Positions 23,676 to 54,154 of a DNA stretch of 64,000 bases are shown here, in pieces. Source of the stretch: Sphingobacterium micropteri (GTDB taxonomy: Bacteria > Bacteroidota > Bacteroidia > Sphingobacteriales > Sphingobacteriaceae); assembly GCF_014692515.1 (NCBI RefSeq), contig NZ_JACOIK010000009.1:124001-188000 (forward strand), in the 5' to 3' direction. The notes below the pieces were generated by a model, which saw only the letters and a program-made list of their open reading frames with translations, was not told the origin of the DNA and did no database searches. Position 1 is the stretch's first letter. Each line of letters opens with the position of its first letter. Position numbers and translations under genes: made by a program.

Positions 23676-24464
23676 ATGAGTAGTTTACCCCTATCAAAAA
23701 AGTTGAATGAAGACAACCTTTTCAATCAGCTGAATCTGCCACTATCCAGTAAGTGGCCGGAAATCCAAAAAGCCTATGAGCAGCAATCCAAGACATTAAA
23801 ATCGGCTATTGCGTTATCAAAAGACAGTGCCCAGAAGGCACAGCAAGAACAAAAGCTACGGTGTCTGGACACTGCCTATCAAGCATTCTCCCAGCGACTG
23901 AGCGAAGAGAACGCCAATGTACACCAGACCAAAGAAGCCCTGAAATCCGTCGGACTTAACGAAACGGCAGACTGGGACAAAGTCAACAAGCGCTTTGACG
24001 AGATCCGCCAGCGCGAACCAGAACAGGCATCCTTCCTACAGCCACAGATGGATCTGCTGCAGAAGAACAAAGCCTACCTGGAGCCCAATCCGATGCTCGG
24101 GAAACGCACCCTTCTTACCGGTGCGCTGATCCTCGGTGCCGCAGGCATATCCTGGGCAGCGTACAACCACCTCAGCTCGGAAGAAAAAGGCGAAATGCTA
24201 CAGGCCGTCACACAAAACCCGGCTGCTGCTCCGCAGGAAGCCGATGCAGCAGTTCCAGAGGCTGCTGTCGACGGTGCACTGGCCGATGTGCCGATGGAAT
24301 CGCTGCAATATATAGACGATGCCGAGCTCGAGCAGTACATCTTGGACAACACCACTTTTGAAGACGAGATCCTATCGCTGCTGGGCCTGTTGCCCTCACC
24401 GCAGCTATCCCTCGCCCTACAGTACAAGATACAGGTATTCTCCTCACTGGTCAAATCAATATAA
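23676..24464 (+). CDS. Divergent J-like membrane protein, first gene of Hsp70 operon
   Basis: 262 aa. Two J-domain-like helical units occur in tandem: residues about 11-75 (NLFNQLNLPLSSKWPEIQKAYEQQ ... LRCLDTAYQAFSQRL) and about 85-145 (EALKSVGLNETADWDKVNKRFDEIRQ ... LLQKNKAYLEPN). Neither has an HPD motif. A membrane helix follows (TLLTGALILGAAGISWAAYNHL, about 148-168), preceded by KR, which suggests a cytosolic N-terminus. After it comes an Ala/Pro linker and an acidic C-terminal helical segment. The layout parallels the J-like family at 29169-54154, but the sequence is much more diverged. The partner is inferred to be the Hsp70 three genes downstream. Confidence 0.65.
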   Translation: MSSLPLSKKLNEDNLFNQLNLPLSSKWPEIQKAYEQQSKTLKSAIALSKDSAQKAQQEQKLRCLDTAYQAFSQRLSEENANVHQTKEALKSVGLNETADWDKVNKRFDEIRQREPEQASFLQPQMDLLQKNKAYLEPNPMLGKRTLLTGALILGAAGISWAAYNHLSSEEKGEMLQAVTQNPAAAPQEADAAVPEAAVDGALADVPMESLQYIDDAELEQYILDNTTFEDEILSLLGLLPSPQLSLALQYKIQVFSSLVKSI

Positions 24465-24514
24465 GAACTAATTAACCCACTCAATAGTATATACACCCAT
24501 AAAAAAAGAGTATC

Positions 24515-25579
24515 ATGGACTACACAGCAGATCAATTGAACGACATTCTCTCCACTGCCGGAGGCACATTGGACGAGCTAATCGAAAAATCCTCTACCAC
24601 ACAGGGATTAACAGAAGAAATCACGGCCCACCACCAACAGGTGCAGGAAACAGCCCAACAGGTTGAAAGCTATGCCTCAGAAGCACAACAGAGCCAGGCA
24701 CAGGCCGCTTCCCTACGCGACGAAACTTCCAGCCTCCGCGACGAAACAGCTGCATTGCAGGAAGAAACCTCCGCACTACGCGATGAATCGACCGCTTTAA
24801 GAGATGAATCCACAGCTTTGCGCGATGAGAACACGACCCTACGCGATGAATCGACCGCTTTAAGAGACGAATCCACAGCTTTGCGCGACGAGAGCACCGC
24901 ACTACGTGATGAGTCAACAGCCTTAAGAGACGAATCCACAGCTTTGCGCGATGAGAGCACCGCACTACGCGACGAGTCAACAGCCTTAAGAGACGAGTCC
25001 ACAGCATTGAGAGATGAGAACATTGCCCTACGTGATGAGTCAACAACCCTACGGGACGAATCGACCGCCTTGCGCGACGAAAGCACTGCCCTTCGTGACG
25101 AATCTACGGCATTGAGAGATGAGTCTGTCGCCCTGCGTGATGAATCCACACAACTGCGTGACGAGAGCAGCAGCTTGCGCGATGAGTCGACTTCCTTACG
25201 CGATGAGTCTATCCAGCTTCGTGATGAAAACATCTCTTTGCGCGATGAATCGACCGCACTGAAAGACGAGTCTACCGCCCTGCGCGACGAGAGCACCTCG
25301 CTTCGGGATGAAAACCAAGCCCTACGCGACGAGTCGGATTCACTGAAACAGGAAATCGAAACCCTCAGACAAGATGCCGACAGCTTAAAAAGCGAGATCG
25401 AGCGCATGCAGAGTGAAGCAGAAAGCCTCGTATCGGAGATCAACAGCAGCAAGAGCGAAGCCGAGAGCGTGAAGAGCGAAGTAGAATCTATCCGTTCGGA
25501 AGCACAGAGCATCCTTTCCGAGATTGAGTCGATCCGTTCGTCGGCAGCATCTTCCGGCGGCGGTAGTTTTATGTTTTAA
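24515..25579 (+). CDS. Heptad-repeat (LRDESTA) coiled-coil protein
   Basis: 354 aa, no signal peptide or TM. A short helical head (MDYTADQLNDILSTAGGTLDELIEKSSTTQG) is followed by more than thirty consecutive seven-residue units with consensus ALRDEST (about residues 68-290). These give way to SLKSEIE- and SVKSEVE-type heptads and a flexible tail GGGSFMF. Leu at one position and Ala/Ser/Thr at the others predict one very long, rigid, acidic coiled coil, more than 40 nm if fully helical (inference). At the DNA level the units form 21-bp repeats with a 63-bp higher order. It is the second gene of the Hsp70 operon. A membrane-anchored mini-version occurs at 52430. Confidence 0.8.
   Translation: MDYTADQLNDILSTAGGTLDELIEKSSTTQGLTEEITAHHQQVQETAQQVESYASEAQQSQAQAASLRDETSSLRDETAALQEETSALRDESTALRDESTALRDENTTLRDESTALRDESTALRDESTALRDESTALRDESTALRDESTALRDESTALRDESTALRDENIALRDESTTLRDESTALRDESTALRDESTALRDESVALRDESTQLRDESSSLRDESTSLRDESIQLRDENISLRDESTALKDESTALRDESTSLRDENQALRDESDSLKQEIETLRQDADSLKSEIERMQSEAESLVSEINSSKSEAESVKSEVESIRSEAQSILSEIESIRSSAASSGGGSFMF
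24715..25350 (+). repeat. 21-bp / 63-bp coding tandem repeats
   Basis: About thirty 21-bp units encode ALRDEST-type heptads. In the centre (about 24847-25035) three-unit blocks of 63 bp repeat nearly exactly, with alternating Ser codons TCC, AGC and TCA marking each position in the block. This points to recent block expansion. The long antisense reading frame here is a by-product. Confidence 0.8.
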
Positions 25580-25598
25580 TTGAAATAACCACAACGTT

Positions 25599-27356
25599 TT
25601 GGCTGTATCTATTAATTTTTCAGATCGCTTTCACAAAGAAACGCAGAAAATGCAGAGTCTGATGCAAAGCTATCCGGGCATGGAGATGGGTCATCATTTG
25701 AATGACCATCTCCAGCTTCTGGAAGCACAGGCATCACCTCATGCAGAATACCCCATCGAAGTTCTTTTGCTCGATATGCCGAAGGAAGAACAGCTCTTTC
25801 GGCTATTGGACTTTCTACAGATCACGCCCGAGGAGGGCAAGAACCTCCCGTTGCAGCTCAATGATGCAGCACATCGTTACCAGTGCCACCATATTATCCG
25901 CAGCGGCACGGCAACCTATCGCATCACGCTCTACAACTCGGCACATATCCCGGTACGGAGCACCTCCAACCTGGCGCCTTGCTTCAAACTGGTCTGCTGG
26001 TTTGCCTCCGAGCCGCCTACCGAAGACGAAATCGAACCGATCCTTCTCCGTTTGGATGCCGAAAGCGGTATCGTTTTCTTCCTCAACTATGCCGCGGTCA
26101 ATTTCATGGATGGTGCACCGCAACTGCGCATGCACGCTCTTCCGCCCGATCAGTTGCCCGAAAACCTAACGGTACTGCTGGAATCCGATGCCCTCAAAAA
26201 GATCCTGCCCCTTGCGCACGCCTCACGCTTGCTACAAGGACTGGAAAAAGTGTCGGCGTCTTTCTCCCAGTATATCGCACAGCAAGAAAAAGACATCAAG
26301 ACGAAGAAGTTCCAGAATCAGCAGGAGAAACACAGCTTCGAGCAGGAAGGCAAGCTCAACCTACAAGATCTGTACAAACAGCTGAAGGGCGGGCTACAAC
26401 GTGACTTCTCCGAGTGCGAGCGCGGCATACAGGATCGCCTCGTCCGGCTAGGCCAACGCCACAGCCCCAATTCTCTGATGGCACAGATAGAAAACCGCAT
26501 CCAGCAGGTAGATCATCTCCAGGAGGAGAATTTTGCCGGCAACATCCGCATGACCCTGCCCGCCGGCACACAGGATACCTTGGTGCGCACGGTCTTTCAA
26601 GGACTGCGCATGCAGATCGATCAGGATATCTTTGCCTTCAAGGAATTCATCAAACAGGAATGTGGCGATCTGGATAAAAAAATGACCGAACACCATTTGG
26701 CATTTTCCTACTCCCCACAGCTACAGATCAACCTGTCGCGCATCGAAGCCAATATTGCCGAGTACGTACAGTTTACGCAGAAGTATGAGACGGAGAAGAA
26801 ACAGCTGCATTTTGGCGACTATCTTCGTGCTGCACTAGGCCCCATTATGGCTGTAGGGGGCTTATTTATGGTAATGAGCCTGTTGGGCATTCCACTTAGA
26901 GCCATCATTTCCGGAACCAATAAATTCATCACCGTTCCGATCATCTTGGGTATCTGTGGTTACAGTCTATACCAGTTTACCAGGCACAATAAAGCCCGGA
27001 ACATACACGAATACGACGCCGAGCTGAACCGTATGCGCGAAAATTTGCTCACCGAGACCAGAGGCATGATCCGCAAGGTAACGGACGAATGGCAACGGGA
27101 GATCATCGGAGCCTTGCGCGAGGAGCTCAACCAGATGGTCAATACCCTCGAAAACCTTTTTGCCCATGCGGCCGCGGAGCACAAAGAAAATATACAGCGT
27201 GCGCAGCGATCTGTACAGCGCCGGGAAAATGCCTTAGGCCAGCGAGAGAGCACCCACCTGAGTGTCTTGAAAAACAAAGAAAACTACGATCGCTTACTCG
27301 CCCAACTTAGCGGGGAGCTGATGAACCAGTACCAACAACAGCTACAGCAACTATGA
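25599..27356 (+). CDS. Two-TM protein with flanking coiled coils, Hsp70 operon
   Basis: 585 aa. Residues about 1-190 are a globular, mixed alpha/beta domain of unknown type (HHIIRSGTATYRITLYNSAHIPV, FKLVCWFAS, IVFFLNYAAVNFMD). Helical coiled coil follows to about 405. Two adjacent membrane helices lie at about 413-433 and 443-460 (PIMAVGGLFMVMSLLGIP, ITVPIILGICGYSLYQF), then a C-terminal coiled coil to the end. The helical-hairpin topology recalls the stalk and paddle of bacterial dynamin-like proteins, but no GTPase motifs exist. The start is uncertain: TTG at 25599 or ATG at 25650. It overlaps the Hsp70 ATG by 4 bases. Confidence 0.7.
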   Translation: MAVSINFSDRFHKETQKMQSLMQSYPGMEMGHHLNDHLQLLEAQASPHAEYPIEVLLLDMPKEEQLFRLLDFLQITPEEGKNLPLQLNDAAHRYQCHHIIRSGTATYRITLYNSAHIPVRSTSNLAPCFKLVCWFASEPPTEDEIEPILLRLDAESGIVFFLNYAAVNFMDGAPQLRMHALPPDQLPENLTVLLESDALKKILPLAHASRLLQGLEKVSASFSQYIAQQEKDIKTKKFQNQQEKHSFEQEGKLNLQDLYKQLKGGLQRDFSECERGIQDRLVRLGQRHSPNSLMAQIENRIQQVDHLQEENFAGNIRMTLPAGTQDTLVRTVFQGLRMQIDQDIFAFKEFIKQECGDLDKKMTEHHLAFSYSPQLQINLSRIEANIAEYVQFTQKYETEKKQLHFGDYLRAALGPIMAVGGLFMVMSLLGIPLRAIISGTNKFITVPIILGICGYSLYQFTRHNKARNIHEYDAELNRMRENLLTETRGMIRKVTDEWQREIIGALREELNQMVNTLENLFAHAAAEHKENIQRAQRSVQRRENALGQRESTHLSVLKNKENYDRLLAQLSGELMNQYQQQLQQL

Positions 27357-28882
27357 TTATCGGAATAGATTTAGGAACGACTTACTCGCTGGGTGCGACG
27401 CTCAACGTAGATCACCAGCCCATATTATTGCCGGACAATACGGACAAGAACGGGCTATATACGCCCAGCGTGCTGCACATCAACGGCAACAACGCCTTTG
27501 TAGGGCAGTCTGTGATGCACATGCTGGAACAAAATCCCGACCTGAGCGTAATCCGTTTTTTCAAGCGAAGCCTCGGTGAGAACAAGCCCTTGCACATGGA
27601 TGGACAGGGCGACGTGTGGTATGCCGAAAGCGTGGCTGCCCTTGTACTCAAAAAAATCAAGTACGATGCCGAGATCTACGCCTCCAACACGGTAGAAGGT
27701 GCCGTGATCACCATCCCTGCCCATTTTAGCGATGCCCAGCGCAAATCGGTGCTACACGCTGCAAAAATGATCGACCTGTCCGTGCTCGGACTGGTGGAGG
27801 AACCCGTAGCGGCTGCCATGCACTACGGCATCAGCAACAAAGCCTCCGACCAGAATATCCTGGTCTACGACCTTGGTGGCGGTACCTTTGATGCTACCGT
27901 GCTCAGCATGAGCGACCGCGCATTCAAAGTACTCAGCAAAGACGGACTGACCGACCTCGGGGGAAAGGAATTTGATGAAGCCATTGCCGGTATTGTGTAC
28001 CAACAGTTTGAAAAATCATTGGGAAGGCCGGTCGAGTTTTCCGGACGCAAGGCACAGCAGCTCCGCGTTTTCTCCGAGGAGGTCAAGATCGAGCTGTCCA
28101 GTCCGGGCACACAATACGTCAGCAGGATGTGCCTATTGGGTGATGACAACATCGAGGTGTTTATCTCCCGTAAGGAATTTGAGCGTGCCATCACCTCCCA
28201 CGTGGAGCGTACCCTCAAGATCCTGCGCCGATGTATTGCCTCGGCCAACTTGCAGGAAGAAGACATCGATGTGCTGCTCTTGGTGGGCGGTTCCTCCATG
28301 GTGCCTTTTATCCAGCAGCATATCAAGGCCACCATGCCGAAGCTGGCCGACAAAATCCGCTTCCAAGACCCGATGAAGGCCGTCGTATACGGTGCAGCTA
28401 TCTACGCCCGGATGCTCTCGGGCAAAGATCAGCCCGGCAATAACATGGATATTCCATCCGAGCTCAAAGGCGTAACGGGATACAACCTGGCGGTACGCGC
28501 CATCGACTCAGAAAGCGGGCGCACCATTCTGGATATCATCATTCCGAAAAACCGGCCGATCCCGCTCAAAGTGAAAAAGACCTATTACACCGGCCCCAAC
28601 AACGATGGCAAAATGCGCATCGAGCTGGTGCAGTTTATCGAAGACAACGACGTGAAAACAATGGGGATACTCAACGTAGGGCCATTACCGACCCACGAAG
28701 CCAACTACCCCATCGAGATCACCCTCGAATATACAGAAGACAGCGTGGTGGTGCTTCAGGCCTACGACCCGAAAACCGGCCGCGAACTGGAGAAAACGTT
28801 CGGCAAGGAAGGCATGGGCGCCAATTACCTCGCCACACAGAAAAAACTGGTACAGAAAGCGTTTATTAACAATGTGATATAA
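27353..28882 (+). CDS. Hsp70 (DnaK-like) chaperone lacking the lid
   Basis: 509 aa. Nucleotide-binding motifs are intact: phosphate-1 IGIDLGTTYSLGA (residues 3-15), Lys71 in RFFKRSLG at the DnaK Lys70 position, phosphate-2 ILVYDLGGGTFDATVL (169-184) and adenosine motif LLLVGGSSMVPF (308-319). The substrate-binding beta domain follows (about 385-490). The protein stops where the alpha-helical lid would begin, so it is about 130 residues shorter than DnaK. There is no EEVD-like tail. It is the last gene of the four-gene operon and lies directly before the array of J-like genes. No grpE is in the window. Confidence 0.93.
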   Translation: MIIGIDLGTTYSLGATLNVDHQPILLPDNTDKNGLYTPSVLHINGNNAFVGQSVMHMLEQNPDLSVIRFFKRSLGENKPLHMDGQGDVWYAESVAALVLKKIKYDAEIYASNTVEGAVITIPAHFSDAQRKSVLHAAKMIDLSVLGLVEEPVAAAMHYGISNKASDQNILVYDLGGGTFDATVLSMSDRAFKVLSKDGLTDLGGKEFDEAIAGIVYQQFEKSLGRPVEFSGRKAQQLRVFSEEVKIELSSPGTQYVSRMCLLGDDNIEVFISRKEFERAITSHVERTLKILRRCIASANLQEEDIDVLLLVGGSSMVPFIQQHIKATMPKLADKIRFQDPMKAVVYGAAIYARMLSGKDQPGNNMDIPSELKGVTGYNLAVRAIDSESGRTILDIIIPKNRPIPLKVKKTYYTGPNNDGKMRIELVQFIEDNDVKTMGILNVGPLPTHEANYPIEITLEYTEDSVVVLQAYDPKTGRELEKTFGKEGMGANYLATQKKLVQKAFINNVI

Positions 28883-29168: not shown

Positions 29169-31097
29169 ATGACCAAAGAACAAGCATACGAAAAACTCGA
29201 ACTGCCCATAGGCACCGACCTGCAGGTGGTACGGCAGAAATTCAACCAGATGCACAATGAATTTCTGATGCAGATCGACGGGGTTTCTTTCAATCCGGCC
29301 ATGAAGCAAAAGAAAGAGCAACAGCTTGAAGAGCTGAAAGAGGCTTATGCCGTACTGAACGAAAGCAAGGGTATGGATGATTCGGCTTCCTTACCGCATA
29401 CAGAAAGAACCTTTGACCACGGTGGAACCGAAACCCGGAGCAGCTCTTCAGAGCCAGAGCCAAGCAAGCCCAAGGGGCAACAGGCCCCTCCACCTCCCCC
29501 ACCGCCGCGTGAGGAAACATACCAACCAAGAGAGCAGGCGCCTCCGGTGTACAGCGCTCCTCCGGAAAAGAAAAAAAGCAATGCCGGATTGTTTGTGGGT
29601 ATTGCTGCAGGTGCTATCATCGTGTTGGCCGGCGCTTACTTCATGGCGAACCGCTCGGGAGATGCGGGTAATTTATCAGCTTCAGCAGACGGAAAGCTAG
29701 ATTCCATTGCTTGGGAATCCGCCTTGGCCGGAGGCAACGAAGCGGCGTATACCCATTACATCAAACAGCATCCGAACGGCATCTTTATGGACGCCGCGAT
29801 AGATTCGCTCACCAAGCTCAAAGGCGCAGATTATGCTACAACTGTAGTGGAACAGGCACAAGAGCAAGCGGCGGCTAACACGCCTACTACAGCCACTGCT
29901 CTGTCAGCCCAAAGTGCCGCACCTGTGCAAAGCACGTCTGCCGAAACCGTCACGCCTGTAGCAACCACCACCAAGAATGCCGATGCTTTTTATAAAGAGG
30001 CAGATGATCTTCATAATAAGAAACGGTATAAAGAGGCTTTCGCATTATATCGGCGAGCCGCAGATTTGGGTGATGCCCGTGCAAAATACGATTTGGGAAT
30101 GTATTACAAAAACGGTACTGGAGTGAGTGCAAACCAATCGACATCTAACAACTGGTTTAAACAAGCTTTACAAGAACTTCCTAATATGGCTAATCAAGGT
30201 GATATAATAGCTCAACTTTATCTTGGACATATCTACTATTTAGGATACGGTACTTCCCAAAAGCATACCGAAGCAGTGAAGTGGTACAAAAAAGCAGCCG
30301 ATCAGGGACAAAGGGCTGCTCAAAACAACCTTGGAAATATGTATAGATATGGTCAAGGTGGTGTCACCAAGGACGAATCCGAAGCTGTCAAATGGTATCT
30401 GAAAGCGGCTAATCAAGGCCTAGTAAATGCGCAAGACAATCTCGGAGATATGTATAGAGATGGTAAAGGTGTCGCTAAAAATGAAGCCGAAGCCGTCAAA
30501 TGGTACCGCAAAGCTGCCGCACAAGGAAATACAAGCGCACAAGCTAGTATGGGAAGGGCGTATCATTATGGACTAGGGGTTGATAAAGATTTTCAACAAG
30601 CAGAAAATTTTTATACGCAAGCAGCTAAAAGTGGTAATAATTGGGCATGTGAACGTCTGACTGATTTGGGCTATGATATCGAAAAAGAAACAAAAGACTA
30701 TTGCAGAGCAAAAGAACTTTATCAAAAAGGAATCGATTTAGGACAGGATGGATATGCGTACTATAGGCTCGGAACCCTCCATTATTTTGCCGGTAGATGT
30801 GGCGGCGGCGGCTACGCAGAAGCAAAAAGATTATGGCTAATCGCCTTTGATAAAAAAGAGAGATCTGCTGCCGCTAATTTGGGTTTTATGTATTATGGCG
30901 GCTTTGGTGTCGATATCGATTATATACAAGCCGAAAAGTATCTATTAAAATCTCTTGAATTTGGTCTGAAGGACGGTTTCCCGGAATATCGATTAGGCCA
31001 GATTTACCAAAAAGGTGGTCATGGTGTTACACAAGACACCGAAAAAGCAAATGAATATTTTGCTATAGCGAAGAAGAAAGGGTACACAGGGTCTTAA
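29169..31097 (+). CDS. J-like / TM / SEL1-repeat protein
   Basis: 642 aa. Residues 1-67 are the array's common J-like domain (MTKEQAYEKLELPIGTDL...QMHNEF...LEELKEAYAVLNES), with HNE in place of HPD. A Pro-rich cytosolic linker (QQAPPPPPPPREE) leads to KKKSNAGLFVGIAAGAIIVLAGAYFMA, one TM helix with positive residues on the N side, so the C-terminus should be periplasmic. After it comes the W..A....Y..YI...P.GIF module (about 180-215) and then about eight SEL1 repeats (for example AAQNNLGNMYRYGQGGVTKDESEAVKWYLKAANQG). SEL1 repeats bind partner proteins. The ligand is unknown. Confidence 0.85.
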   Translation: MTKEQAYEKLELPIGTDLQVVRQKFNQMHNEFLMQIDGVSFNPAMKQKKEQQLEELKEAYAVLNESKGMDDSASLPHTERTFDHGGTETRSSSSEPEPSKPKGQQAPPPPPPPREETYQPREQAPPVYSAPPEKKKSNAGLFVGIAAGAIIVLAGAYFMANRSGDAGNLSASADGKLDSIAWESALAGGNEAAYTHYIKQHPNGIFMDAAIDSLTKLKGADYATTVVEQAQEQAAANTPTTATALSAQSAAPVQSTSAETVTPVATTTKNADAFYKEADDLHNKKRYKEAFALYRRAADLGDARAKYDLGMYYKNGTGVSANQSTSNNWFKQALQELPNMANQGDIIAQLYLGHIYYLGYGTSQKHTEAVKWYKKAADQGQRAAQNNLGNMYRYGQGGVTKDESEAVKWYLKAANQGLVNAQDNLGDMYRDGKGVAKNEAEAVKWYRKAAAQGNTSAQASMGRAYHYGLGVDKDFQQAENFYTQAAKSGNNWACERLTDLGYDIEKETKDYCRAKELYQKGIDLGQDGYAYYRLGTLHYFAGRCGGGGYAEAKRLWLIAFDKKERSAAANLGFMYYGGFGVDIDYIQAEKYLLKSLEFGLKDGFPEYRLGQIYQKGGHGVTQDTEKANEYFAIAKKKGYTGS

Positions 31098-31167: not shown

Positions 31168-32625
31168 ATGACAAAAGAACAAGCATACGAAAAACTCGAA
31201 CTACCGGTAGGCACCGACCTGCAGGTGGTACGGCAGAAATTCAACCAGATGCACAACGAATTTCTGATGCAGATCGATGGGGTTTCTTTCAACCCGGCCA
31301 TGAAGCAGCGGAAGGAGCAGCAGCTGGAGGAGTTGAAAGAAGCCTATAAACTCCTAAACGAAAGCGATTCCATTGACGATTCCGCTTCACGGCCGTACAC
31401 CGGAAAAACCTTTGACCACGGTGGAACCGAAACCCGGAGCAGCTCTTCAGAGCCAAGCAAGCCCAAGGGGCAACAGGCCCCTCCACCTCCCCCACCGCCG
31501 CGTGAGGAAACATACCAACCAAGAGAACAGGCGCCTCCGGTGTACAGCGCTCCTCCGGAAAAGAAAAAAAGCAATGCCGGATTGTTTGTGGGTATTGCTG
31601 CAGGTGCTATCATCGTGTTGGCCGGCGCTTACTTCATGGCGAACCGATCAGATATTGGAAACCCATCAGCTTCTGAGACAAATAATACCGAAGCCTCTCG
31701 TGATTCTGCTACTTGGGAAACCGTGCTATTTGCTAATGACTCCACTACTTATCAGCATTATATAGACAATTTTCCCAACGGCATCTTTGCACAGGCTGCA
31801 AAGGATTCGATAGCACGGCTACAAACAGCGACAGTCGATGATACACCGATAGCCACGGCACCAAGTCAAGACAACGAAATAACCCAACAGTTTGCGGCAC
31901 AGCAGGAGCGAATCAAGCAGTTGGAGCAAGATAAAAAAGAGCAGGCAGAGGCACTAGCCCGACAACGAGAAGCACGAGAGCGACAAGAGGCGATCCGTAA
32001 CAAGCAGGAAACCACACCTAAAGTTGATGTCAATTGGGAAGCGAATTATGAGGAGGTCGGCCCCGTTTATGGGGATCGTCGTAAAGTAATAAAAAATGGA
32101 AAACAAGGATATGTATCTCTTGATGGCCAAGTCATTATACCACCCATTTACGACGGATTCTTCAATTCATCTTCACATGTAAATCGTCTACCAGCCAAGA
32201 AAGGAGAGCTAGCGGGGCTTATCGACACAAAGACCGGAAAAGAATTGACCCCTTTTATTTACGACCATATACAGGTTTTTAATGAAGGACTCGCAACATT
32301 TAGGTTGCCCACCAGTAGTGGAGGTGGAACTGGTTATATGGATATCAATGGTAACGAAGTGATTCCTGCGGTATATTCTAACGCCTGGAGTTTTTATGAC
32401 GGGCTTGCTATTGTTGATAAAGGCCGAAGATATGGCGTCATCAATAAAAATCAAAACGAAATAATCCCTTTCGGAAAATATACGATTATTCATAACCTAC
32501 ATGGTGGACGTTTAAATAATACTATTCCAAATCGCTTTAAAGCACTAACAAAAGACGGAAACTGGATATTGATCAACGAGAAAGATGAATTCTTGAAAAA
32601 TATTGACGTACACTATCAGGAATAG
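31168..32625 (+). CDS. J-like / TM / WG-repeat protein
   Basis: 485 aa. The first 150 residues and the TM helix are nearly identical to the 29169 protein, including the PPPPPP linker. The W..V....Y.HYIDNFPNGIF module follows, then a Gln/Arg-rich helix (ERIKQLEQDKKEQAEALARQREA). The C-terminus differs: degenerate WG-type beta repeats (GKQGYVSLDGQVIIPPIYDGFFN, GTGYMDINGNEVIPAVYSNAWSFYDGLAIV, RYGVINKNQNEIIPFGKY). ATG at 31168 is chosen because it aligns with MTKEQ of the paralogues; the frame runs 16 codons further upstream. A 12-bp hairpin (31115-31141) precedes it. Confidence 0.82.
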   Translation: MTKEQAYEKLELPVGTDLQVVRQKFNQMHNEFLMQIDGVSFNPAMKQRKEQQLEELKEAYKLLNESDSIDDSASRPYTGKTFDHGGTETRSSSSEPSKPKGQQAPPPPPPPREETYQPREQAPPVYSAPPEKKKSNAGLFVGIAAGAIIVLAGAYFMANRSDIGNPSASETNNTEASRDSATWETVLFANDSTTYQHYIDNFPNGIFAQAAKDSIARLQTATVDDTPIATAPSQDNEITQQFAAQQERIKQLEQDKKEQAEALARQREARERQEAIRNKQETTPKVDVNWEANYEEVGPVYGDRRKVIKNGKQGYVSLDGQVIIPPIYDGFFNSSSHVNRLPAKKGELAGLIDTKTGKELTPFIYDHIQVFNEGLATFRLPTSSGGGTGYMDINGNEVIPAVYSNAWSFYDGLAIVDKGRRYGVINKNQNEIIPFGKYTIIHNLHGGRLNNTIPNRFKALTKDGNWILINEKDEFLKNIDVHYQE

Positions 32626-33247: not shown

Positions 33248-34147
33248 ATGAAAAGCAAAACATACAAATCAACAAGAAAATCCTTCACGCTATGCAGTTA
33301 TCTGCTATTTGCCGTATTGTTTTTCAGTAGCACGGTTGTCACAAAAAGCAGTCCTTCGTCCCGCCCGCATGGAAGCACGGCAGCGGAAAACTTACCGGAA
33401 CCCGATCCGAGGCTACAGGAACTCCGCGAAAAGCTAAACCATTTTGCCGAGGGCGTTCGCTTTCAATACGACAGTACTGTCCTGCCTACAAAATCTATCC
33501 TTGCCTTAGACAGTATACTGCGCCTGATGAACGAACAGCCAGAAGCGTATCAATACCTGATCCGCGTACACAGTTACGAAGACGGGAAATCCGCGGACTA
33601 CATGCTGGAATATTCCAAAAGCCGCGCCACCGCTATCCGTAGATATTTGGCCATGCAAGGAATTTCATCCAAAGCCCTGCTTGGACAAGGCATGGGAAGC
33701 AGTGACTTAAAGTGTTTTGACCAGAAAGAACCGGATTGCTACCATCGAAATAACCGGCTGGAAATAGACCTCCGTAAATGGGATGACGAGGAAGGTTCCG
33801 GGGAACTCTCTTCAGAACTCACACTGCTTGCCTCACGCTTACGATTCAGCACACATGGCGCCCTGTTTCATGAGAACGATGCCATCATCAAAGAGATGGC
33901 AGATTATATGAAACAATCGAACAACAGCTACAATTTGATCGTTCATGCCTACGATCCTATCGCTCCCGAGTATTTTAATGTCGCTTTATGCGAGACCAAA
34001 GGCGAAACTTTAGAGTATTTTTTACAGTTGAATGATATTGCAGTAGAACGATTAAATGTCATCCCCAAAGGAAATGCGCAGTACCAATGGACAGGAAAGT
34101 ATACACAGTTTCTACTAGAAATTGAGGAGATAACAAACTATGATTAA
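33248..34147 (+). CDS. Exported OmpA-like protein with two OmpA-type domains
   Basis: 299 aa. N-terminal export helix (SFTLCSYLLFAVLFFSSTVVT). The first OmpA-like domain (about 55-178) has VRFQYDSTVLPTKSILALDSILRLM, YLIRVHSYEDGKSADYMLEYSKSRATAIRRYLAMQGIS and NNRLEIDL, the positions that grip peptidoglycan in OmpA. The second half (about 190-299) repeats the plan in weak form (LASRLRFSTHGALFHENDAIIKEMADYM). The last residues EITNYD are encoded by the cassette-boundary repeat AACAAACTATGATTAATGG, so the original end may have been replaced. Confidence 0.8.
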   Translation: MKSKTYKSTRKSFTLCSYLLFAVLFFSSTVVTKSSPSSRPHGSTAAENLPEPDPRLQELREKLNHFAEGVRFQYDSTVLPTKSILALDSILRLMNEQPEAYQYLIRVHSYEDGKSADYMLEYSKSRATAIRRYLAMQGISSKALLGQGMGSSDLKCFDQKEPDCYHRNNRLEIDLRKWDDEEGSGELSSELTLLASRLRFSTHGALFHENDAIIKEMADYMKQSNNSYNLIVHAYDPIAPEYFNVALCETKGETLEYFLQLNDIAVERLNVIPKGNAQYQWTGKYTQFLLEIEEITNYD

Positions 34148-46241: not shown

Positions 46242-47723
46242 ATGACGAAGGAACAAGCATACGAAAAACTCGAACTCCCCGTAGGCACGGATTTACAAGT
46301 GGTACGGCAAAAGTTCCAGCAGATGCACAACGAATTTCTGATGCAGATCGAGGGCGTTGCGTTCAATCCAGCCATGAAGCAACGGATGGAACAACAACTG
46401 GAGGAGTTGAAAGATGCATACACGCTATTGAACGAGAGCGAGAGCGTAAATGATATCATTTTCGTTACCCCCGGTCCTCCACCCCTTCCACCATCCAGAT
46501 ACTCGTTGGAGGAACTTCTGGCATCCTTACCCAAAAACATACACGTCGCGAACGAGGCAGACCGTATTATTTTGACCATGAACCATAACAATTGGGAAGA
46601 AGGAAAGTCCACCCTCATCTATGGTCTTGTGGCGGCAGTTGTGGTAGGTTTCTTTCTGAACGGTTTTGTAAGTCTCTTAGCGGATGTTTTTCATGCCCCT
46701 CATGTCGAGATATCGCGCTCGACTATTTTAAAAATATTAGGATTCGCTTCTTTAGCTTTTATCTTTTGCAATTTAATGTTCGCCCTACTGTTTTCTGGAT
46801 TGACTAATATTATCGGAAAAACCATCTTTAGCATATCTTATGACTCCGTGAACATACAAAGTAAATTAATGGGATTTATGTTGCATGAAGCATCGGTGAT
46901 TTGGACAGAAACCAAGCTAATTGAGAAGCAGGAAAAACCTCCCGGTATAAATTTCCACCTACAAAATGGAGAAATCATCGAAATGGAAAGTCGGGCTCAA
47001 GACCGTGATTTATCGGAGTTAAAGGTTATACTAAAACAGTATCAATATAAGTATGAGTATGAAAAATGTATACCGACTACACCAGCATACACCAATACAT
47101 CCTATAAGAAAGAAGGCAAGATATTTTCCATCCAATTTATCTATCTGCTATCCGCAATGCTGATTATCGGCACAGGAGTATATGTTGCCATTCATCAATC
47201 AAAAATGCGAACAAACCATATACACACCGACAACAACAATAACGTTATGAAAAACACACGCTACTATTTTATCCTTCTGGTCTGCGGGATCTTTTTCTCT
47301 ACCGGCACCACCATGGCAAAAAGCCACCCGACCATACCCTTTCTTCAGGACACCATCGATGCACCGATGGTCGTATACGTTCCGGATATCCAAGACATCC
47401 GCGAAGAGCTTCACGAGCTGGCAAAGGATGTCCGCTTCCAATACGACAGTTCCGTTCTGCCTACTCGATCGATAGCTATATTGGATAGAGTCAGACAGCT
47501 CATTTTGGAGCAGGGCGATGCCTATCAGTTTATCATCCGTGTGCACAGCCATGAGTCGGGACAATCGGCCGAACAGGCTGTTCGATATTCCGGTATGCGG
47601 GCAGATGCCTTACGCCGGTACCTGATCAATCAAGGGATATCGTCCCAAGTACTGTTGACGCAAGCTATGGGCAGCAGCAAGCGGAAATGTCCGGACGAAG
47701 ACATGGAAACAGATGTAGATTGA
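46242..47723 (+). CDS. Fused J-like / three-TM / OmpA-like protein, truncated at 3' end
   Basis: 493 aa. It is a copy of the 39400-40938 gene pair. At the place where the first gene ends (TAA in copy 1), this copy has TCA, so the frame continues through SKMRTNHIHTDNNNNV into the signal peptide and OmpA-like domain of the second gene. The frame then ends early: TGC in copy 1 (DVDCYHK) is TGA here, which removes NNRIDILVQ, part of the ligand site. If translated, the former signal peptide would act as a fourth TM helix. It could be a new fusion or a decaying duplicate; the OmpA part may still start on its own at 47247. Confidence 0.7.
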   Translation: MTKEQAYEKLELPVGTDLQVVRQKFQQMHNEFLMQIEGVAFNPAMKQRMEQQLEELKDAYTLLNESESVNDIIFVTPGPPPLPPSRYSLEELLASLPKNIHVANEADRIILTMNHNNWEEGKSTLIYGLVAAVVVGFFLNGFVSLLADVFHAPHVEISRSTILKILGFASLAFIFCNLMFALLFSGLTNIIGKTIFSISYDSVNIQSKLMGFMLHEASVIWTETKLIEKQEKPPGINFHLQNGEIIEMESRAQDRDLSELKVILKQYQYKYEYEKCIPTTPAYTNTSYKKEGKIFSIQFIYLLSAMLIIGTGVYVAIHQSKMRTNHIHTDNNNNVMKNTRYYFILLVCGIFFSTGTTMAKSHPTIPFLQDTIDAPMVVYVPDIQDIREELHELAKDVRFQYDSSVLPTRSIAILDRVRQLILEQGDAYQFIIRVHSHESGQSAEQAVRYSGMRADALRRYLINQGISSQVLLTQAMGSSKRKCPDEDMETDVD

Positions 47724-47780
47724 TATCACAAGAACAACCGCATCGATATTTTAGTACAACCCGCAATGGAGGAGGAATAA
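47724..47780 (+). pseudogene. Untranslated 3' remnant of the OmpA-like duplicate
   Basis: The bases after the TGA still encode, in frame, YHKNNRIDILVQPAMEEE and a TAA, as at 40882-40938. Only a single C-to-A change separates it from the intact gene. Confidence 0.85.
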
Positions 47781-48091: not shown

Positions 48092-49987
48092 ATGACAAAG
48101 GAACAAGCATACGAAAAACTCGAACTACCGGTAGGCACCGACCTACAGGTGGTACGGCAGAAATTCAACCAGATGCACAACGAATTTCTGATGCAGATCG
48201 ATGGGGTTTCTTTCAATCCGGCCATGAAGCAAAAAAAAGAGCAACAGCTTGAAGAGCTGAAGGAGGCATACACACTATTAAACGAGAGCGAGGGTATGGA
48301 TGATTCGGCTTCCCTGCCGCGTACGGAACGAACCTTTGACCACGGTGAACCATCCACTCATGGACAAACCACAGAGGAGTTGTCGCTCGAAGATGCTTTT
48401 GCTCTTTTCAGATTGACCGAACAGCAGGATACAACGAAAGTCCAACAGGCTATACAAAGCCGGCTTGAAAAATTAAACCAACAATACGACACTATCGATA
48501 TCGCTGTAGCTAAGGAAGCCATTCGTGTAGAAATAGAAAAGGCCGGAAAAGCAAAAGTAATCATAGATAACTGGCAAGAAAATCTCGCAAAAAAACAAGA
48601 ACAGCAAAAAGAGCAAGCCTCACCGTCAAAGGCAGAAAGCCGTCAAGCTCTTACAAAAAGGAAATATTGGATGGTTATCTTAGCGGTCATGATTCTAGTA
48701 AGTCTGGGCTATGGTATTTGGAGATCCACTCATAAATCATCTATTGATTTGGAGGAGCAGCAAAAAATAGCGTTAACCTGGATCCCTACCCACCGTGTGT
48801 CGGAAGAAGGGAAAGATGGGGTATATGTGCGAAACAGGGAACTTACCAAAGAAGAACAGGGTCGAATCAATACCGATGCTAAACTCAATGCAGAAACCTA
48901 TGTAAATATGCTCCATGAAAATGACAGTCTTATGGTCCTACAAGAAACGGAGTTGTCGTATGTGATTCAGCTCAAAGATAAGGAAGAATTAGTGTATTTG
49001 CCCAAAGACAGTAAGAGCTATATTTTCAAAATCGGTCAATCTACCGAGGCTGAACAGACCAAAGAAATAGATCAGGAAAATCCAACAGAAGCACAGCAGA
49101 CCGATGTAGACTGGAGAAAAAGGTATCATGCCATTGAAGACTTTCACGAGGGTCGTGCGGTGGTTTTTTATAATCAAAAATATGGATATGTTGACTTAGA
49201 TGGAAATGTTGTCATTCCATTGAAATATTGGACAGCTGATCCATTCAAAGATGGGCTTGCACGAGTAGGCATCAACCATAAATATGGGTTTTTAGATAAA
49301 AATGGTCGTACTGTTATACCTCTAAAATATGATATGGTACAAGAATTTAGGGAAGGACTTACTCTTGTAAAGCTGAATGAAAAAGTAGGGTTTTTAGATG
49401 AAATTGGAAAAGAGGTTGTCCCTTTAAGATATGATGACGCAAACAGTTTTTTTGGAGGAATTGCTCTTGTGAAATTAAATAAAAAATACGGATATGTAGA
49501 CAAAACCGGAAAGGAAATTACGGCAATAAATTACGATTATGGAGGGATTAATTCTAATCTAGAAGGAGTGATTGTAGTAAAGAAAGATAAGAAGTATGGA
49601 TATATAGGTATAACAGGAAATGAGGTCATTCCATTAAAATATGATTTCGCAAACCCTTTCGAGGAAGGATTGGCAAGCGTAAAATTGAATGGAAAACATG
49701 GATTTATAGATAAAACAGGGCAAGAGGTAATCCCTTTGAAATATGAATATACAAGTAGTTTTTCGCATGGACTTGCAGCTGTAAAGCTAAACAACAAATG
49801 GGGGTATGTAGACAAATTTGGGCGTGTTGTTATTGATTTTAAATATGATAAGGCTTATGATGCCGCAAATATTGCAAAACATGGCGGGATTAGTATGCAT
49901 GTGGTAGTCAATGATAAAACGTTTTATATCAATAGTCAGGGTAAGTGTATCGAATGGTGTGAAAATGCACCTGAGGGTCACCCCTAA
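48092..49987 (+). CDS. J-like / second J-like / TM / WG-repeat protein
   Basis: 631 aa. J-like domain 1-67, then a second helical unit at about 100-170 (SLEDAFALFRLTEQQDTTKVQQAIQSRLEKLNQQYDTIDIAVAKEAIRVEIEKAGKAKVIIDNW). One TM helix (YWMVILAVMILVSLGYGIW) follows KRK. After a small domain (about 220-320) come about six WG-type repeats, such as YGYVDLDGNVVIPLKYW, YGFLDKNGRTVIPLKYDMVQEFREGLTLVKLN and WGYVDKFGRVVIDFKYD. Lysine-rich loops separate them. WG repeats are beta-type binding modules. A fossil SEL1 end follows directly, which indicates that the C-terminal half was swapped in. Confidence 0.83.
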   Translation: MTKEQAYEKLELPVGTDLQVVRQKFNQMHNEFLMQIDGVSFNPAMKQKKEQQLEELKEAYTLLNESEGMDDSASLPRTERTFDHGEPSTHGQTTEELSLEDAFALFRLTEQQDTTKVQQAIQSRLEKLNQQYDTIDIAVAKEAIRVEIEKAGKAKVIIDNWQENLAKKQEQQKEQASPSKAESRQALTKRKYWMVILAVMILVSLGYGIWRSTHKSSIDLEEQQKIALTWIPTHRVSEEGKDGVYVRNRELTKEEQGRINTDAKLNAETYVNMLHENDSLMVLQETELSYVIQLKDKEELVYLPKDSKSYIFKIGQSTEAEQTKEIDQENPTEAQQTDVDWRKRYHAIEDFHEGRAVVFYNQKYGYVDLDGNVVIPLKYWTADPFKDGLARVGINHKYGFLDKNGRTVIPLKYDMVQEFREGLTLVKLNEKVGFLDEIGKEVVPLRYDDANSFFGGIALVKLNKKYGYVDKTGKEITAINYDYGGINSNLEGVIVVKKDKKYGYIGITGNEVIPLKYDFANPFEEGLASVKLNGKHGFIDKTGQEVIPLKYEYTSSFSHGLAAVKLNNKWGYVDKFGRVVIDFKYDKAYDAANIAKHGGISMHVVVNDKTFYINSQGKCIEWCENAPEGHP

Positions 49988-50143: not shown

Positions 50144-51250
50144 ATGAAAACATACGGTTACATAAACACCAAAAATGAAATGATCATCCAATCCCGTTAC
50201 CACGAGGCAGGAGCATTTTGCGAAGGCATGTCCGTCGTGGGCATTGACGGGAAATACGGGTTGATCGACCAGTGGGGAACAGAAGTCCTGCCCTTGCAAT
50301 ATGATGCTGTGCGCATGATGTCGGACGGGATAGCTGCCGTACAGCAGGGTGAAAAATGGGGGTTTGTCGATCGGCAAGGAAAAATCTTCATCAGTCCACA
50401 ATTTGACAATGTCGGTGAGTTTGCCGAAGGTCTAGCAGCGGTTTGCGTCGATGAGAGCTGGGGTTTTGTAGATCGGTTTGGCACCTTACGCATCCCCTGC
50501 CACTACGACGACGCCTTTTCTTTCGAACAAGGTATGGCGATGGTCGCCAAAGACAAATGCTATGGTTTCATTGACAATGCCGGCTCAGAGGTCATTCCGA
50601 TCCGGTATGAGAATATCCTTCCATTAAACGATGGACTCGCTCCTATATGCGTAGACGATCGCTGGGGCTGTATCGACAGTAGCGGCACAACCGTCATTAA
50701 ACCTTGCTATGAAGACATCGGTCTACATCAACAAGGATTATTGACCGTCAAACAGGACAACAAGTGGGGATGCGTAGACATCTACGGCAAGACGGTCATT
50801 CCCTTCCAATACGAGGAAGCTATCCATTTTAAGGAAGGGTTGGCTCCCTTAGTACAGGAGGGCAAATATGGTTTTCTGCGCAGAAACGGAAATTGGGCAA
50901 TAGCGCCTGTCTTCGATTATGCAGATCACTTTATAGCCGGATTGGCCCTCGTAGAACGTGACGGCAAATACGGCTTTATAGACCATACCGGCACCATGGT
51001 GATACCCTTGGACTACGACGACGGTTACAGCTTTGATGCAGAAACCGCTTCCGTAAAGAAAGGCGAATACTGGGGGTGTATTGATAAGAGAGGTAGTGTC
51101 TGTGTGCCGTTTGTGTATAACGAGCCGGTGTTTTTCAGTGAAGGAAGAGCGAGAGTGGGGGAATGGATTGGTAAAGGAACCCCGAAGGGCTCAACGAAGT
51201 TAATAACAGAAAGCAAAAAAATAACAAACGATACAAGCACTGACAACTGA
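50144..51250 (+). CDS. Cytosolic WG-repeat protein with repeat-derived tail
   Basis: 368 aa, no signal peptide or TM. It consists of about nine WG-type beta repeats of 36-37 residues (YGLIDQWGTEVLPLQYDAVRMMSDGIAAVQQGEK, WGFVDRQGKIFISPQFDNVGEFAEGLAAV, WGCVDIYGKTVIPFQYEEAIHFKEGLAPL). It lacks the J-like head. The last 25 residues (from about GKGTPKGSTKLITESKK) are encoded by the dispersed spacer words GAACCCCGAAGGGCTCAACG and GTTAATAACAGAAA, so the natural end has been replaced. A partial copy of its 3' end lies at 45870. Confidence 0.82.
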   Translation: MKTYGYINTKNEMIIQSRYHEAGAFCEGMSVVGIDGKYGLIDQWGTEVLPLQYDAVRMMSDGIAAVQQGEKWGFVDRQGKIFISPQFDNVGEFAEGLAAVCVDESWGFVDRFGTLRIPCHYDDAFSFEQGMAMVAKDKCYGFIDNAGSEVIPIRYENILPLNDGLAPICVDDRWGCIDSSGTTVIKPCYEDIGLHQQGLLTVKQDNKWGCVDIYGKTVIPFQYEEAIHFKEGLAPLVQEGKYGFLRRNGNWAIAPVFDYADHFIAGLALVERDGKYGFIDHTGTMVIPLDYDDGYSFDAETASVKKGEYWGCIDKRGSVCVPFVYNEPVFFSEGRARVGEWIGKGTPKGSTKLITESKKITNDTSTDN

Positions 51251-51269: not shown

Positions 51270-52280
51270 ATGACGAAGGAACAAGCATACGAAAAACTCG
51301 AACTACCGGTAGGCACCGACCTGCAGGTGGTACGACGGAAATTCAACCAGATGTACAACGAATTTCTGATGCATATCGACGGAGTTTCCTTCAGTCCGAC
51401 GATGAAGCAACGGATGGAACAACAGCTGGAGGATCTGAAAGTGGCATTCGCAATACTGAATGAAAGCAAGGGTGTGGACGATTCGGCATCGTTGCCATAT
51501 ACGGAAAAAACTTTTTTCCAAGAGGAAAGTTTCCAAAAAGCAGCTTATACAATCCCGCCACCACCGGTGCCGCCTATACCTTCGCAGATGCCGGAACAAC
51601 AGTATATGGCGTATACGGAACGTCATGCTAGTCCGATCCGCGAGCCAAAATGGTGGTATGTCGTGATCACGATACCCATGCTGATCGCCTGTGCCCTGCT
51701 GATCGCTGAGCTAGCAACCGCAGGAGGGTATACACGCGGATTATTTGGTCAGGCATTCTGTTGGGTCATCGGAACCATTATCGGAAACAGTATCTTGCTC
51801 AACCACTTCTCCCCTACCTTGGTACCTCCATATTTAAGAGGTTCTTGGTTTCAGGGAATCCGCGGAGGCATCACTCTATTCACTATCCTCGCATTAACAG
51901 GCTATCTGGTGTATATGCTATACACGACCGGGGCCAACAGTACAAAAATATATGGTATACGGTGGAGCCATTACAAGGAGTACGCAGGCAGTGGCATCGT
52001 CATCTTACAGTTCGGATGGCTTCTATTTATGGGACTGATGTTCATTATCGGTCTGGCCAACCCCCGCACACTCTACTTCCAAGAGAGAGGCAGCATAGTC
52101 GGGGCCTTAGCAGCTTTGGTCGGCTATCAGATGATCTTGATCTTTTGCCTGTTCATGACAGTACCCTCCGATGAGCGGTTACGAAACATCTCGGACGGGT
52201 CGTATTACGGAAATCCGGATTGGTATAATGAAGAGCTACCAGATGAGGAATACGAGTATGAAACGGACAGCGTACAATAA
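51270..52280 (+). CDS. J-like protein with about five membrane helices
   Basis: 336 aa. J-like domain 1-67, slightly diverged (VRRKFNQMYNEFLMHIDGVSF: the His of HNE is Tyr here). A Pro-rich linker leads to five hydrophobic helices: about 130-152 (WWYVVITIPMLIACALLIAELA), 162-182, 200-222, 240-262 and 275-298. The C-terminal tail is acidic (YNEELPDEEYEYETDSVQ). The membrane part was not recognised. It follows the WG gene with only 19 bases between, within which the heptamer repeat is compressed. Confidence 0.78.
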   Translation: MTKEQAYEKLELPVGTDLQVVRRKFNQMYNEFLMHIDGVSFSPTMKQRMEQQLEDLKVAFAILNESKGVDDSASLPYTEKTFFQEESFQKAAYTIPPPPVPPIPSQMPEQQYMAYTERHASPIREPKWWYVVITIPMLIACALLIAELATAGGYTRGLFGQAFCWVIGTIIGNSILLNHFSPTLVPPYLRGSWFQGIRGGITLFTILALTGYLVYMLYTTGANSTKIYGIRWSHYKEYAGSGIVILQFGWLLFMGLMFIIGLANPRTLYFQERGSIVGALAALVGYQMILIFCLFMTVPSDERLRNISDGSYYGNPDWYNEELPDEEYEYETDSVQ

Positions 52281-52429: not shown

Positions 52430-52648
52430 ATGAGCAATCAACAAAAAACAAAAGAACGAGTGGTGCCGTATTTAACAATCGTCTGCGCAATCCTATTGCT
52501 GATCAATCTCTTTATTCTGTTTAGAAACCAAGCGCTGCTAGCAGAATGCACGGCTTTGCGCGATGAAGCCGAAGCATTACGGGATGAGGCAACTACCTTA
52601 AGAGATGAATCCGCAGCTCTACGAGATGAAACAATACAAGGGAATTAA
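52430..52648 (+). CDS. Small TM protein with LRDE heptads
   Basis: 72 aa. Basic N-terminus (SNQQKTKERVV), one TM helix (PYLTIVCAILLLINLFILF), then ECTALRDEAEALRDEATTLRDESAALRDETIQGN: four heptads of the same kind as in the long coiled coil at 24515. It is probably a membrane anchor that could pair with the long coiled coil through matching heptads. If the N-in rule holds the heptads would lie outside; the charge bias is modest, so topology is unsure. Confidence 0.7.
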   Translation: MSNQQKTKERVVPYLTIVCAILLLINLFILFRNQALLAECTALRDEAEALRDEATTLRDESAALRDETIQGN

Positions 52649-52774
52649 CCCATTACCAAATATGGAATACCATGAAGACAAAAAAGGACAATATAATGAT
52701 TGATTGTTAATGGATACAGAGACTGATTACTGACAACTTACTACTGATAACTTACTACTTACTACTCAAAGAAA
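52649..52774. repeat. Cassette spacer
   Basis: GATTGATTGTTAATGG followed by ACTGATTACTGACAACTTACTACTGATAACTTACTACTTACTACT heptamers up to the next ATG. No gene is seen. Confidence 0.55.
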
Positions 52775-54154
52775 ATGACAAAAGAACAAGCTCTCCAAAA
52801 CCTTTCCCTGCCGGCAGATGCCGACATGGAAACCGTCCGTATGCGTTTTGCCGCTCGCTATACGCTGAGCGATGCACAATACGACCACACACTCACCGAC
52901 GGTATGAAAGCTGTACACGAGCAGCACCTTCGGGAACTCGAGCAGGCCTATAAGGTCATTACCGACAACCCTGTTATTGACGATATGGGCGCCTTGCTCT
53001 CCTTGGGCAAAGGCTACGTAGAGGAAGACGGGGATACGATCCGTACGGACAGCGTCATCCCGTCTGATGAGGCATTGGCTTTCTTTGCGCTATACCCGCA
53101 CGACAGCCCCGTACTTGCCGAACAGCGCTATACACAATATGTTTCGGAACTGGAGGTCGCCATAGAACAGGTAGGGCTAGAAGCGTCAAAAGAACCGTAT
53201 AGAAAGGAGATTGCCCATGCAGAGGCCTGCCTGAATGTGGTCATCAATTACCTCTTGGCTAGCCAGATGCTGGCCTTCCAACAGGAAGAAGCTATAGAGG
53301 TCGCAGAACAGCAGGAATCTATCCCCGAACCGGAGTGGGACAAGATGGACAGACCGATTGATGCCGTACCTGCAGCGTCCAGGCCGTTCAACAAACGTAT
53401 ATATGGTCTGATAGCTATAGTAGCCATGATGTTGCTCGCTATAGGGGTCTGGATAGGCAAGCGTTCGGGCGCAGATAAAGACGATAAGCCCAATCCGGAG
53501 ATGCAGGCTCTTACCGAAGCAGAAACCACCCGAGCTCATATGCCGAATACGCAAAGCAGCGCCGCCGCGCCTGAAGTAGCGAAACCATCGGTACCAGTTG
53601 CGCACGAGGTAGATGAAGCACGGCTGGACCAACAGCTGGATCCATCGCCAACGACTATCGTAGCATCACTATTAGAGCAATACATCTCGGGATATAAGGT
53701 CACCGTCTCCGATGGGCTGATACTATTGGAAGGAAATCAAACCTATCGGCTACCCATTCGGAATATCGATCATATAAACGATGAAGGAGCGTTCGTTAGC
53801 GTATTTGGCAGCTCGCTTTATGTCGATAATCAACCCAAAAGAACCAGCGAAGGCCTACAGCTTACCCGTGTATCCCGGGAAGACCGCGACCGTTTGCTGA
53901 AAGCAATCCGCAGGATAGCGCCTGCGCGCAAAGCCGCCGAAAAAACAATAGCTTCTCCTTCTACGAAACCCACAACGGAAACGGCAGATCCTGTATCTTC
54001 AACTGGGGAGCATACAGCGGGGCCTGCCAGCAGTAAGCCAACGACAGACAAAAACAATAGTACTCGGCAGGATAACACGGAGCAGAAAAAATCGCCCGAC
54101 ACGAAACCGACAGAAAAAACGACACCCTCCGAAAACGAAATAGCAAAAAGTTAA
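52775..54154 (+). CDS. Divergent J-like / TM protein
   Basis: 459 aa. The J-like head keeps MTKEQA and the helix pattern (LQNLSLPADADMETVRMRFAARYT...LRELEQAYKVITDN) but has no His-x-x motif. The second helical unit is at about 90-165 (PSDEALAFFALYPHDSPVLAEQRYTQYVSEL...SKEPYRKEIAHAEACLNVVINYL). A TM helix (IYGLIAIVAMMLLAIGVWIG) lies at about 208-230. Outside it is a domain with TVSDGLILLEGNQTYRLPIRNIDHI (about 310-375) and a Thr/Lys/Ser-rich tail. The head is more like an ancestor of, or an outgroup to, the eight near-identical heads upstream. Confidence 0.75.
   Translation: MTKEQALQNLSLPADADMETVRMRFAARYTLSDAQYDHTLTDGMKAVHEQHLRELEQAYKVITDNPVIDDMGALLSLGKGYVEEDGDTIRTDSVIPSDEALAFFALYPHDSPVLAEQRYTQYVSELEVAIEQVGLEASKEPYRKEIAHAEACLNVVINYLLASQMLAFQQEEAIEVAEQQESIPEPEWDKMDRPIDAVPAASRPFNKRIYGLIAIVAMMLLAIGVWIGKRSGADKDDKPNPEMQALTEAETTRAHMPNTQSSAAAPEVAKPSVPVAHEVDEARLDQQLDPSPTTIVASLLEQYISGYKVTVSDGLILLEGNQTYRLPIRNIDHINDEGAFVSVFGSSLYVDNQPKRTSEGLQLTRVSREDRDRLLKAIRRIAPARKAAEKTIASPSTKPTTETADPVSSTGEHTAGPASSKPTTDKNNSTRQDNTEQKKSPDTKPTEKTTPSENEIAKS

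Follow-up and report, generated by a model that had tools for sequence, protein, structure and literature searches.

How is an Hsp70 used when its gene is followed by many genes for membrane proteins that resemble its J-domain partners and lack the HPD (His-Pro-Asp) loop? This question is raised by a locus of Sphingobacterium micropteri, found in a stretch of 64,000 nucleotides (contig NZ_JACOIK010000009.1, positions 124,001 to 188,000), which we call the window and whose coordinates are used below. All genes described are on the forward strand. A lidless Hsp70 (27353..28882) and a dynamin-like protein without GTPase motifs, the pseudo-dynamin (25599..27356), are encoded upstream of a series of adaptor genes whose products begin with a common J-like unit, the head. 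On balance, from sequence and predicted structures, we read the locus as encoding a membrane-associated, envelope-facing Hsp70/pseudo-dynamin hub with plug-in J-fold docking adaptors. An original prediction made from the DNA sequence had proposed that the heads dock on the Hsp70; it overlooked the pseudo-dynamin, a variant with SrfB/SrfC and the wider distribution of the system. Searches of the open-access literature turned up no account of such a locus, and it looks like an undescribed way of wiring many envelope proteins to one Hsp70.

The heads and the lidless Hsp70

Nine heads were located as predicted: those of the genes at 29169, 31168, 35811, 39400, 41056, 46242, 48092 and 51270 are 85-98% identical to the query head, and the divergent one at 52775 is 38% identical. 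No further head was found elsewhere in the 4.85-Mb genome, and searches of Pfam, NCBIfam and PADLOC gave no significant match of the head to any named family. A profile built from HPD-less heads only, however, retrieved true HPD-containing J-domains, including DnaJ, in other genomes (E 1e-6 to 1e-3). Searched against the PDB, it matched DnaJ2 (E 0.0033 over positions 3-64), the remaining matches being mostly J-domains. Alignment of the head profile with J-domains by hhalign gave a probability of 97.9%; this comparison is partly circular, since the J-domains had been retrieved by the head profile, but the PDB match is independent of it. The AlphaFold model of residues 1-171 of the 48092 protein has head helices at 3-9, 18-38 and 43-66, and the Foldseek list was headed by J-domain proteins (6rzy, TM-score 0.70 by target length, root-mean-square deviation 2.2 Å). 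Profile, model and structure search agree with the J-domain assignment of the original prediction, and on these grounds the head is a J-domain derivative with the three-helix J fold.

The same prediction took an HNE motif in the head as the substitute for HPD, which the register rules out. In ungapped comparison with DnaJ, offset 0 was the best in 9/9 heads; hhalign gave the identical register, in which Y7, L10, R22, F25 and F32 of the head are equivalent to Y7, L10, K22, Y25 and Y32 of DnaJ. At the HPD positions, 33-35, the window heads read LMQ and those of Sphingobacterium FBM7-1 read QVQ; Parapedobacter and Arachidicoccus share RMR, and more distant heads have QLR, QIR or ETK. HNE occupies positions 29-31, one helical turn before the HPD site and within helix II, and in the AlphaFold model helix II extends through the place of the HPD loop. 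Judged by register and model, the head is without an HPD loop.

The Hsp70 has 509 residues and matches PF00012 with an E-value of 8e-78, the best stretch being residues 84-483. Compared with DnaK of the same genome, it ends after the beta part of the substrate-binding domain and has no alpha-helical lid, as had been predicted. Its orthologs in Sphingobacterium FBM7-1, Parapedobacter composti and Arachidicoccus ginsenosidivorans are 93, 78 and 74% identical, respectively. The family retains the ATPase motifs GIDLGTT, DLGGGTFD and GGS. The residues that contact HPD are lost: relative to the same DnaK, VKRIINEP is changed to VLGLVEEP (R167 to G and N170 to E), Q378 to Y or H, and the linker VLLLDV to ELKGVTGY or similar; in this alignment the copy of one genome (G161) is cut off past the linker, where its contig ends. 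For DnaK, bonds from D35 of the HPD motif to R167 and Q378 and a contact between H33 and linker residue L391 are documented, and replacement of H or D abolished stimulation in every tested system (PMC8215388). As read from the alignments, the standard HPD relay is absent from both the head and the Hsp70. With the loop missing from the head and the matching contacts missing from the Hsp70, ordinary ATPase stimulation is not expected. The double loss is consistent with co-loss after rewiring, and by itself it is no proof of binding between head and Hsp70.

The pseudo-dynamin and the distribution of the core

The gene at 25599..27356 overlaps the start of the Hsp70 gene by four bases. In its AlphaFold model, an alpha/beta N-terminal domain resembling a degenerate G domain is followed by a helical stalk and a hydrophobic transmembrane hairpin region, and a long helix forms the C-terminal end. 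The model best matches bacterial dynamins (5owv, E 2.6e-5; BDLP, 4.6e-5; IniA, 7.8e-4). PADLOC gave a weak LeoBC match, and LeoA, LeoB and LeoC are bacterial dynamins (PMC4159319). The P-loop GxxxxGK[ST] was present in 0/7 members of the 25599 family, and N/TKxD was likewise missing from them. Because no member has either motif, we named the protein pseudo-dynamin; according to model and sequence it is a dynamin-like fold without GTPase motifs. It shares the modelled fold, and a transmembrane segment region between helical parts, with LeoABC, Campylobacter DLP1/DLP2, BDLP and IniA, but differs from these in the absence of GTP-binding motifs (7/7) and in having an Hsp70, not a second dynamin, as its partner.

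Two more genes precede the pseudo-dynamin gene. The protein at 23676..24464 has an N-terminal head-like unit, a possible second unit, a weak transmembrane segment (best 19-residue hydropathy 1.45, borderline) and a conserved C-terminal tail; its orthologs in three genomes (73/41/37%) are in the same operon position. A pair of HPD-less J-like units had been predicted here. The first unit held, matching the head profile (E 2.7e-5, probability 74%), whereas the second is only possible. A match of this protein to ActJ (E 0.02) is only a hint. The protein at 24515..25579 is a heptad-repeat coiled coil, (LRDESTA)n, with conserved ends and same-position orthologs of 83/54/47%. The order 23676, 24515, 25599, 27353 and then heads is the same in Sphingobacterium FBM7-1, Parapedobacter composti and Arachidicoccus ginsenosidivorans. 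Sequence comparison shows the core to be the lidless Hsp70 and the transmembrane-hairpin pseudo-dynamin, to which the coiled-coil and J-like proteins are added in Sphingobacterium-type loci.

The coiled-coil gene contains tandem 21/42/63-bp repeats; at 24771-25119, 21/63-bp repeats produce the long LRDESTA run. Coiled-coil proteins at two distant loci (L036 and L075) have other repeats (HEQAASKFMDQAEQ-like).

We surveyed 395 Bacteroidia genomes with cut-offs of E <= 1e-3 for the pseudo-dynamin, E <= 1e-90 for the Hsp70 and E <= 1e-12 for strong heads. The Hsp70 and the pseudo-dynamin were found in the identical 6/395 genomes, belonging to four families, and heads were present in 6/6 of these. 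The chance of such an overlap of six is about 5e-12 (hypergeometric, with genomes taken as independent); three of the six belong to one genus, which lowers the true weight of this figure. Strong heads occurred in eight genomes, six of which have the Hsp70, so the heads are not found mainly without it; the other two are G222 (incomplete, 78%) and G316. Within the genus, one other genome in the sample has the locus. The predicted co-occurrence of head and Hsp70 was thus upheld, but that of a PAS-LuxR regulator was not. LuxR-type regulators lie upstream in the window and in Parapedobacter and none was seen in FBM7-1, so PAS-LuxR was rejected as a conserved part.

In G316, a cluster at L070:14944-L071:7770 is of the SrfB/SrfC type and includes a DO-GTPase1-like gene (below the cut-off) with head proteins adjacent. 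The heads adjoin SrfB (E 6e-169) and Virul_Fac (E 6e-51), and their tails are GYF/DUF805-like (by eye) or Fib_succ_major. Of 11 genomes tested, G316 alone had SrfB, which was absent from the window genome too, so it was rejected as a general partner. SrfB, an actin/Hsp70-fold ATPase, stands in G316 alongside the P-loop GTPase SrfC. The G316 cluster possibly links Srf systems to the Hsp70 hubs. In another genome, G181, a head-FHA fusion (L072) lies next to a PP2C-like gene and a Ser/Thr kinase that has an FGE-sulfatase tail, in a neighbourhood that looks like type VI secretion.

How the hub may work

After the head, each adaptor has a transmembrane helix or helices with 1-5, usually 2-5, lysine or arginine residues on the N side, as the original prediction had noted. 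The tails across genomes include Sel1, WG, FGE-sulfatase, TonB_C and LRR. TonB_C, FGE-sulfatase and similar domains are placed past the transmembrane segment, in line with the predicted variable parts beyond the membrane. TonB_C is a periplasmic domain, which supports a topology with the head inside. The interleaved Sel1, OmpA and vWA-barrel proteins and the WG neighbours were also recovered in domain scans. Some adaptors keep their exported partners as neighbours (35811/37487 in Arachidicoccus; 41056/42638/43110 in FBM7-1). In 29169, third codon positions of the region comprising head, linker and transmembrane segment are 77-86% identical to the window paralogs and 47-52% to the FBM7-1 ortholog; the last 190 residues are 92% identical to this ortholog in amino acids and 66% in third positions, so the tail end is orthologous. 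Head, linker and transmembrane segment are homogenised within the genome, which suggests gene conversion or module swapping that would keep one common interface.

In the hub that we propose, each head would sit in the cytosol as a docking module through which its adaptor is joined to the core. The docking surface may be a rewired face of this Hsp70 or the head-like units that core proteins carry. The ATPase state of the Hsp70, not GTP hydrolysis, would govern how the membrane complex of the pseudo-dynamin assembles or opens; the Hsp70 would thereby supply the nucleotide switch that the pseudo-dynamin has lost. The variable periplasmic tails, along with the co-encoded exported partners, would sense the envelope or make contact with it. 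The use of such a hub is likely to be accessory envelope sensing or conflict response, which is favoured because the presence of the locus is sporadic and the tails are changing.

Several observations weigh against this proposal. The Hsp70 is missing in the head-bearing G316, G181 and G608 and in the incomplete G222; in G181 and G608 the head matches are weak, perhaps to J-like proteins of another kind. Distant loci have other partner genes, and some tails in the window have multiple transmembrane helices and no clear external domain. For the small head, Foldseek gave weak E-values (best 0.39, not significant alone), and the TM-scores of the predicted 25599 model are low (0.2-0.3).

Conflict systems of comparable logic were described by Kaur et al. 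in 2020; these comprise the iSTAND/VMAP ternary systems, DO-GTPase with HSP70/GrpE/DnaJ, and effector-associated domains (EADs), one copy of which is on a core component and more on variable effectors (PMC7159879). Both have a constant core, variable effectors and a small helical coupling domain, and in the published systems transmembrane-linked Sel1, OmpA, PEGA and FGS domains and, in some, HSP70 are found (PMC7159879). The hub logic thus appears to resemble that of EAD conflict systems. We nevertheless set the locus apart from them because the core families differ: the presumed coupling domain here is J-derived and the core is an Hsp70 with a pseudo-dynamin. Core genes gave no Pfam match to the MoxR-vWA pair, DO-GTPase or GAP1, and the sole vWA protein is exported. 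DnaK, HscA and HscC with their J co-chaperones, including DjlB/DjlC-HscC, are likewise Hsp70 ATPases with J-fold proteins, some membrane-bound, in dedicated pairing. Unlike in these, the head here has no HPD loop, and the Hsp70 is without a lid, without R167 and Q378 and without the linker motif; in addition, many paralogous adaptors with differing external domains are encoded together with a pseudo-dynamin.

The published EAD grammar (PMC7159879) also prompts another explanation, namely that the heads are homotypic coupling modules that dock on the head-like units of 23676 or on one another, the Hsp70 acting on the assembled complex only. The head-like unit of 23676, the further copies on variable proteins, which are most alike within one genome, and the loss of the HPD contacts from both sides all agree with this. 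At L036 and L038, however, heads adjoin the Hsp70/pseudo-dynamin genes and no separate 23676-type gene was seen there, and we regard this explanation as a possibility of lesser weight. Somewhat less probable still is a housekeeping machine for envelope biogenesis or scaffolding, without a conflict role, in which the adaptors recruit the Hsp70 to build or anchor the Sel1, WG and OmpA proteins of the locus. The exported OmpA, Sel1 and vWA-barrel genes are indeed interleaved and conserved as adaptor pairs, but the patchy distribution (a single further sampled genome of the genus, 6/395 in the class), the fast-changing tails and the duplicated adaptors do not suit a housekeeping role.

That the heads are ordinary J co-chaperones stimulating the Hsp70 ATPase, with HNE or another site in the HPD role, is very unlikely. 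The J fold and the strict co-occurrence with an Hsp70 that retains its ATPase motifs are what such co-chaperones would show, but HNE is off the HPD site, R167, Q378 and the linker are lost in the Hsp70, and loss of H or D is fatal to stimulation wherever it was tested (PMC8215388). A Srf-like operon of secreted or injected effectors is suggested by G316, where the same heads adjoin SrfB and Virul_Fac (SrfB PF07520 and SrfC/Virul_Fac PF10139 of SrfABC). SrfC has a P-loop, GGSQVGKS, whereas 25599 does not; the window core proteins have cytosolic or inner-membrane features, and SrfB is missing in the other head genomes examined, the window genome among them. We consider this highly improbable.

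Returning to the Hsp70/pseudo-dynamin hub, a bolder form of it can be offered tentatively: an Hsp70 machine of a new class, in which docking of HPD-less J-folds has taken the place of the HPD-R167 relay, lost from both partners, and in which the Hsp70 ATPase drives a GTPase-dead inner-membrane dynamin. If so, many interchangeable envelope sensors would be placed on one nucleotide-driven membrane switch. HPD is regarded as defining and indispensable for the coupling of Hsp70 and J-proteins. Here both contact sides are lost and yet the pair is genetically linked over several bacterial families, which makes J-folds as pure docking modules testable. The idea that an Hsp70 drives a dynamin-like membrane protein becomes testable as well, and the core of the locus would be an addition to the systems built of a core plus variable effectors.

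Further genes and repeats of the locus

The first two adaptors have a head, a Pro-rich linker and a transmembrane segment, followed by Sel1 repeats (29169..31097) or WG repeats (31168..32625; the listed open reading frame begins at GTG 31120 and the head at ATG 31168). An exported OmpA-like protein (33248..34147; OmpA E 4.8e-14), whose FBM7-1 ortholog adjoins heads, is followed by an exported Sel1 protein (34333..35678) that is matched in two frames by the 37487 protein and is split into two open reading frames (34333/34731) by a frameshift that may stem from decay or from faulty assembly. The adaptor at 35811..37469 has a head, a second J-like unit, a charged coiled coil, a transmembrane segment and a Cys-rich conserved C-terminal tail in common with Arachidicoccus L026:13325, and the exported Sel1 protein at 37487..39250 follows its head gene also in Arachidicoccus. 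A head with three transmembrane helices (39400..40359) precedes an exported OmpA-like protein (40405..40938; 42% identical to an FBM7-1 OmpA gene product). The adaptor at 41056..42618, with a head, a second J-like unit, a transmembrane segment and Sel1 repeats, is followed by a small exported protein (42638..43102) and an exported vWA protein with a C-terminal barrel-like region (43110..45869; VWA_2 E 5.6e-6; 50% identical to its FBM7-1 ortholog); in FBM7-1 the ortholog pair also comes after a head gene.

The open reading frame at 46242..47723 (OmpA E 6e-10) is a duplicate of 39400 and 40405 fused into one and truncated C-terminally. It arose from a recent 1.6-kb duplication of 39400-40974 to 46242-47816 (95.6% identical over 1575 nt) and is probably a decaying copy. 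A head, a second J-like unit, a transmembrane segment and WG repeats make up the protein at 48092..49987; a WG-repeat protein without a head (50144..51250), a head with four transmembrane helices (51270..52280) and the last head gene (52775..54154; divergent head, second J-like unit and transmembrane segment), which is kept in three genomes, come next. The second unit was rejected as a proven J-domain: the head profile gave 92.6% but true J-domains directly 9.5%, so it is J-like only. Foldseek with the two-unit model found nothing under E 0.001, probably because of linker flexibility.

The locus continues to about 61359, farther than originally predicted. Downstream genes conserved with FBM7-1 (55103..61359) are 55103, an OmpA gene at 55755, two weakly serpin-like genes and an FGE-sulfatase gene at 60334. 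The serpin-like genes (56286-57314 and 59255-60319; E 3e-4 and 8e-4) are under the Pfam cut-off and are in the same place in FBM7-1, whereas an AAA_14/DUF4143 gene at 57384 was not seen at the corresponding FBM7-1 place. Short ACTGACA/ACTGACTACT repeats with a 7-bp period lie immediately 5' of head genes (29116-29168, 41010-41056 and 52722-52766) and at other gene starts, where a role in recombination or regulation is possible.

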